Source: Seohaeicola saemankumensis (GTDB lineage: Bacteria; Pseudomonadota; Alphaproteobacteria; Rhodobacterales; Rhodobacteraceae). From it: a DNA stretch of 64,000 nt. Below are positions 60,138 to 60,561 of the stretch, piece after piece. Below the pieces are notes generated by a model. It ran no database searches. It was given only the letters and a program-made list of their open reading frames with translations, and had not been told where the DNA came from. The stretch's first letter is position 1; the number at the start of each line of letters is the position of its first letter. The stretch is taken from positions 124,001-188,000 of the forward strand of contig NZ_JAINWI010000009.1 in NCBI RefSeq assembly GCF_021021435.1. The letters are read 5' to 3'. The position numbers and the translations under genes are program-made.

Positions 60138-60561
60138 TCAATCGGGCCGTCCGTCGCGTTTTTGAAGGCAATCGAAATTATCATCCCAATGCGCGCGACT
60201 GGAAAAACAAATATGCCCGTCGGGCTATCCAGTGGTCCAGTTGGCACGACAGGCACACCATCGCCTACCTGCCTGCCTGCCTGCCTGCCTGCCTGCCTGC
60301 CTGCGAAAAAGGCAAAGCGGACCCGCAGTCGGTGCAAAAACATTTCACATGCTGTGACCCAGTCGGCCTGAAATCCCTAATTTTTTCCTTGCCTGACAAC
60401 CAAGTAATCTGCGCCGTGGACGAAAACAGGTTGGCCGAATGGGCTGACCCGCTATCCTTGCGACAACACCAGCAATGACAAAGAAAGAAACTTTTGAACT
60501 CTGCCGATATCCGGAACGTCACAGTTGCACACAGGCACTGTCCAGTCACTAGATTATCCAT
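60138..60561 (-). pseudogene. Broken GFA (CENP-V/glutathione-dependent formaldehyde-activating) family gene
   Basis: The N-terminal 83 residues are a good GFA domain: Cys9, Cys11, Cys28, Cys30 and Cys33 for zinc, then KEKIRDF and HVKCFCTDCGSALPF. GAGAGG precedes its ATG. At a CAGG tract the frame runs into AGR-Q repeats and a TAG. Beyond the tract GDGVPVVPTGPLDS continues the family in another frame, and HICFSSRAHWDDN, the usual C-terminus, is in a third frame ending at 60138. At least two lesions are present: a repeat-length change and a short deletion near 60205. It is probably inactive. Confidence 0.75.
60268..60303. repeat. (CCTG)9 tetranucleotide tract inside the GFA gene
   Basis: Nine perfect CCTG units (CAGG on the coding minus strand) lie between codons of the GFA-like gene. 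Relative to the upstream frame, seven or ten units would rejoin the GDGVPVV segment; nine give early termination at TAG (60265-60267). Such tracts are slippage-prone. Confidence 0.95.

Follow-up and report, generated by a model that had tools for sequence, protein, structure and literature searches.

Ordinary bacterial pseudogenes include those that arise through insertions and deletions caused by slippage. In other bacterial loci, tetranucleotide tracts change in length within working genes, and the rate at which those of Haemophilus influenzae do so is reportedly taken from De Bolle et al. (2000). In a study of that species, tetranucleotide tracts are counted from three units upwards and are said to change at ∼1e-4 per generation (PMC2651432). 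Among the papers listed in our literature search, none was found, by title or by the start of its abstract, that dealt with tetranucleotide phase variation in Roseobacter or Rhodobacter, and the word 'alphaproteobacteria' is absent from the text of one review (PMC11868660). The gene considered here belongs to the GFA family. The GFA protein of Paracoccus denitrificans binds glutathione, whereas catalysis of S-hydroxymethylglutathione formation was not found under standard conditions (PMC4682968). Since that protein was not found there to catalyse the proposed reaction, the role of an intact GFA protein is uncertain.

We analysed a stretch of 64,000 nucleotides (the window) from the genome of Seohaeicola saemankumensis, in which a GFA gene is interrupted by a long CAGG repeat. 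The features of the locus are:

60138 to 60561, minus strand: remnant of a GFA-family gene (CENP-V/GFA fold) in three reading frames, recognized from Pfam, 45 aligned relatives and the predicted fold of a relative
60298 to 60561, minus strand: part A, from the ATG to the first bases of the tract, 88 codons in the start frame
60268 to 60304, minus strand: CAGG tract of nine perfect units (CCTG on the plus strand), 37 bases of perfect period 4
60264 to 60267, minus strand: variant unit TAGG adjoining the tract, whose TAG (60267-60265) stops the 98-residue frame
60212 to 60265, minus strand: part B (GDGVPVVPTGPLDSPTGI), in a second frame
60212 to 60220, minus strand: site of a 16-base deletion, where one copy of an imperfect direct repeat survives (in the closest relative, L040, the two copies read ACCGGCATA / ACGCGCATA)
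60138 to 60215, minus strand: part C (HICFSSRAHWDDNFDCLQKRDGRPD and the stop), in a third frame, with the stop at the same site as in five aligned close relatives
59290 to 60015, plus strand: GntR/FCD regulator, up to which the backbone is conserved in five congener regions

The gene starts with an ATG at 60561 and its last frame ends with a TGA at 60140-60138, so that the limits proposed in an earlier note on this DNA are exact to the base. Its assignment to the GFA family also holds: residues 5-86 of the 98-residue frame match the Pfam GFA profile (PF04828) with an E value of 1.3e-17 and 64.3 bits, above the curated cut-off of 24.3. A search of the remnant against NCBIfam gave no family at E ≤ 0.001. 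Part A retains C9, C11, C28, C30, C33, C76, and C79, the seven cysteines found without exception in 27 relatives; they are putative zinc ligands. The structure predicted for L040, with a mean pLDDT of 74, agrees with the GFA family in a Foldseek search (8ajq, E 3.5e-6; 1x6m, E 1.9e-4). Its residues 114-135 fall below 50, and this low confidence at the C-terminus makes the model too weak to say what the lost end does. The open reading frame on the opposite, plus strand (60032-60478) had no match in a Pfam search.

No full-length frame carrying the conserved C-terminal segment is present, since the gene is spread over three frames and stops after 98 amino acids. The nine CAGG units throw it out of frame, as had been proposed, and the TAG follows directly after the last perfect unit. 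The present-day product would be a 98-residue fragment with QAGR repeats at its end, and would lack the last third of the protein.

The nine full units span 60268 to 60303, and one further base completes the 37-base period. The tract is far beyond chance: the runner-up period-4 run within the window has 11 bases, and the longest in 50 simulated first-order Markov windows has 15. It is the sole run of at least four CCTG units in the 4.09-Mb assembly and the longest CCTG run among 394 genomes of the family. Only three of these genomes, its own included, hold at least five units (the other two have exactly five), which bears out, for the CCTG motif, the description of such a tract as unusual in this group. 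We also scanned 126 loci of other genomes, which total 944 kb with some overlap and exclude two loci that had been chosen for their tract. Tetranucleotide runs there, whatever the motif, stayed below four units, and eight had three. A sample of 464 kb from the genome itself (11%; 400 kb of stretches and the window) contained no second tetranucleotide run of at least 15 bases, so that this sample gave no sign of a set of switch loci. Repeats of other types were observed. For example, four hexanucleotide runs of 20-24 bases lie within ∼360 bases elsewhere in the same genome (L155, 15157-15512; C75, ∼235.2-235.5 kb), and positions 27550-27594 of the window are a perfect 22-base tandem repeat in two copies.

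Comparison with intact relatives gives the size of each of the two lesions in the gene to the base. Eighty of 119 GFA relatives from the genome collection were kept, and 41 of these loci were combined with 6 of 30 further loci with a GFA match. The resulting 47 were reduced to 45 by removing L009 and L013, the latter a duplicate that is identical to L105 in the compared part; the remaining 39 of the 80 loci entered the repeat scan only and stood outside the site-by-site comparison. All 45 relatives have a frame that is open to the stop, with 130-142 amino acids as read from the start of the match, and all 45 lack the CAGG tract. The earlier note had named intact relatives without the tract among the observations that together would count against its own proposal, and this is what the comparison gave. 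Compared with five close relatives (L040, L038, L039, L041, and L045), there are exactly 32 additional bases in the window at the tract, or eight units, and exactly 16 bases fewer near 60212-60220. With TAGG counted, ten units occupy a site where two would match the relatives' length at codons 87-89, and eight units have therefore been gained. At the deletion site, L040 carries two imperfect nine-base repeat copies that are 16 bases apart. The deletion that had been suspected near 60205 is thus real, but lies a few bases away, at ∼60212-60220. Both lesions disrupt a frame that is intact in homologues.

We read the locus as a GFA gene that was probably acquired horizontally and has recently been inactivated, broken twice by slippage-type events, and give this a probability of about 0.82. 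Most likely it is an ordinary case of recent gene loss, in a gene of patchy distribution whose tract is unusually long for the group. The repeat would have expanded from a short CAGG-type seed, as suggested by the finding that two units give exactly the length of intact relatives at codons 87-89. The eight units would have been gained by strand slippage during replication, and slippage of the same type may have removed the 16 bases between the imperfect direct repeats. The perfection of the tract fits a recent expansion, and its length may still vary in the population.

Errors in the data could in principle produce either lesion: the assembly is a draft of 75 contigs, and errors in length are documented when tetranucleotide repeats are sequenced (PMC6889271). 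However, a 37-base tract should be short enough for ordinary reads to span, the deletion sits at a direct repeat, a frequent location of real deletions, and substitutions at near-invariant sites, described below, point towards real decay too. An artefact in the tract length or at the deletion is accordingly extremely unlikely.

Two other candidate explanations were considered. Programmed frameshifting is not favoured, since there are two separate frame changes, neither is found in the relatives compared, and the deletion matches an event at a direct repeat. Loss of mismatch repair was rejected as a cause, because the MutS_I and MutL_C families each have a match in the genome, the open frames being 897 and 659 amino acids long.

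The earlier note had suggested that the tract could switch the frame of the gene, slipping tetranucleotide tracts being classic phase-variation switches. Under such a reading, slippage of CAGG would turn GFA on and off, the 16-base deletion being either later or tolerated. The locus has some of the features of a contingency locus, in that a perfect tract beyond chance lies inside a gene and has a unit length that is not a multiple of three. Slippage of the tract itself is physically plausible. Its nine perfect units exceed the cut-off of three used for tetranucleotides in H. influenzae (PMC2651432), so that they could slip. The frame arithmetic that had been put forward is also correct: one in three tract lengths brings the GDGVPVV segment into frame, and at these lengths reading would continue through part B to yield a product of 135-147 amino acids, a GFA-like protein with a replaced tail. 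Furthermore, part A is still conserved. However, when the minus-strand gene was tested with 1-12 CAGG units, the last segment (HICFSSRAHWDDN), which lies in yet another frame as had been noted, was read at none of them. This conserved end, part C, holds R117, A118, W120, and P134, all invariant in 27 relatives. The 16-base deletion keeps it out of frame at each of these lengths, and full restoration would indeed need a second change. No unit count tried is predicted to give a full-length product with the conserved segments, and a functional switch for the GFA gene is therefore unlikely.

Other observations weigh in the same direction. The tract is neither kept nor varying among the 45 relatives (which are other species, not sister strains), and it stands alone in the 464 kb of its own genome that were sampled. 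MutS and MutL families are present, with no sign of a general repair defect. GFA is of a metabolic type, unlike the surface structures that are usually switched in H. influenzae (PMC2651432). Phase switching of GFA is therefore not supported, and we hold it to be quite improbable. Similarly improbable is a live contingency locus that would alternate between short and longer GFA-derived forms, the longer one having a new tail, while selection still acts on the upstream part.

The protein sequence also bears on decay. With a cut-off of 95% conservation among relatives, there are 59 sites, and the window copy is changed at seven of them (alignment columns G13A, G21A, R33C, L67P, A98T, L125F, and L134R). 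In a leave-one-out comparison at such sites none of the 45 relatives reached seven changes, the maximum being four. With a cut-off of 90% (65 sites) the window copy again has seven changes, equalled by one of the 45 (L014). The changes at near-invariant residues fall on both sides of the tract, which further weakens the case for a switch, and four of the seven lie in part A. On the window branch, relative-rate counts are elevated for amino-acid changes and for silent changes alike, so that the greater length of this branch accounts for some of the excess.

Selection was assessed with a two-ratio codon model on 11 sequences, with one codon at the junction of A and B assigned to neither part. 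In part A, the window branch has an omega of 0.117 against a background of 0.193; the value of 1 is rejected (2ΔlnL 34.2) and the difference from background is not significant (2ΔlnL 1.63). Part A shows strong purifying selection along the window's own branch. For parts B and C together, the branch value of 0.445 is distinguishable neither from the background of 0.226 (2ΔlnL 1.62) nor from 1 (2ΔlnL 2.39). Over the whole gene, omega is 0.199 on the window branch and 0.212 in the background (2ΔlnL 0.04), with omega = 1 rejected (29.8). Such strong selection on the upstream part makes the loss look recent, and in our reading selection acted on the gene along most of the branch, before a recent loss. 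Either the gene worked until recently, or the 98-residue fragment still does something.

Under the second possibility, the fragment would be maintained as a shortened protein in which the cysteine-rich part of the fold is preserved. The low omega of part A and its seven invariant cysteines are consistent with this, as is a tilt of the window-branch changes towards silent ones in part A and towards amino-acid ones in B and C, which is expected if selection acts only upstream. On the other hand, neither part differs significantly from background in the codon model, and part A itself holds most of the changes at near-invariant residues. Strands 93-96 and 109-111 of the structure model of the relative fall past the tract, and it would be odd for a maintained protein to end right after a pure, unstable repeat. 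A maintained fragment is thus quite improbable.

The genomic setting points to the origin of the inactivated gene, which lies beyond the stop of the GntR regulator. This regulator and the TRAP transporter genes are conserved in the five congener regions compared (a sixth congener, G005, also has the regulator, in a region outside the comparison), and DNA similarity to these regions ends at 59987-60019, around the regulator's stop. In congener L138 the backbone resumes ∼1.7 kb further on, at a stretch matching contig position 195689 in the window's genome. Counting distant paralogues, 71 of 101 genomes have GFA matches at E ≤ 0.001. Within the genus such matches occur in three of seven, the window's own included, and two of the four genomes that are without one are only 72-79% complete. 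The copies of the two congeners that carry GFA are 74% and 69% identical to that of the window, and the regions around them (G003 and G006) have nothing in common with the last 10 kb of the window except the GFA match. In a phylogenetic tree the window copy groups with L040, from an uncultured Rhodobacteraceae member, with 99% support, and both congeners' copies fall outside the eight nearest to it. The G + C content of the gene is 53.1%, compared with 60.8% for the window, and its own genome has no second match to the GFA protein at E ≤ 0.001. The patchy presence, unshared surroundings, tree, and low G + C content together make lateral acquisition of the gene likely, as judged from sequence comparison.

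The DNA beyond the regulator was also described in its own right. A block of ∼11.7 kb, from window position 60016 to contig position 195688, stands in place of ∼1.7 kb in L138. All but its last 1.7 kb were covered for gene content. It holds a PRK08139-type enoyl-CoA hydratase and a PRK08162-type acyl-CoA synthetase, along with DMSP-demethylase-like (cut by the window's end), OsmC-like, and methanethiol-oxidase-like genes, the matches of these three all being below curated cut-offs. A membrane-type protein at 60830-61465 on the minus strand has a sub-threshold DUF2306 match (30.8 against 31.6 bits) and was found in one of seven genomes of the genus, its own. No conserved GFA neighbourhood was seen when eight neighbour queries, which did not include the enoyl-CoA hydratase, were run against the 80 loci (flanks of up to 5 kb) and two congener loci; they gave four single matches only, at 24-29% identity. 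A functional link between GFA and its neighbours in this genome thus found no support in these 82 loci.

The locus gives a clear picture of a gene dying through the growth of a microsatellite, in a group of bacteria that seldom carry such tracts, and illustrates that a slipping tract within a gene is, by itself, no proof of a phase switch. If the tract does vary in length, it would serve as a convenient natural reporter of slippage during replication in this group.

Three known systems provide points of comparison. The contingency loci of H. influenzae, which change by slipped-strand mispairing, resemble this one in that a pure tetranucleotide tract in a coding region sets the frame. They differ in that here a single tract was seen in the genome sample, is absent from the relatives compared, lies about two thirds into the gene, and is followed by a second frame lesion downstream, in a gene that is not of the surface-structure type. 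The GFA proteins of family PF04828, such as Gfa (1x6m) and PA2722 (8ajq), are matched by part A at the profile level (64.3 bits), whereas the window copy is broken in frame twice and reduced to 98 amino acids, compared with 130-142 in relatives and 194-196 in the chains of 1x6m. Bacterial pseudogenes formed by slippage indels share with this locus small indels at repeats, an excess of changes at conserved residues, and patchy presence among congeners; what sets it apart from them is an unusually long perfect microsatellite, of a kind that reaches at least five CCTG units in three of 394 genomes, and an upstream part that still looks conserved.
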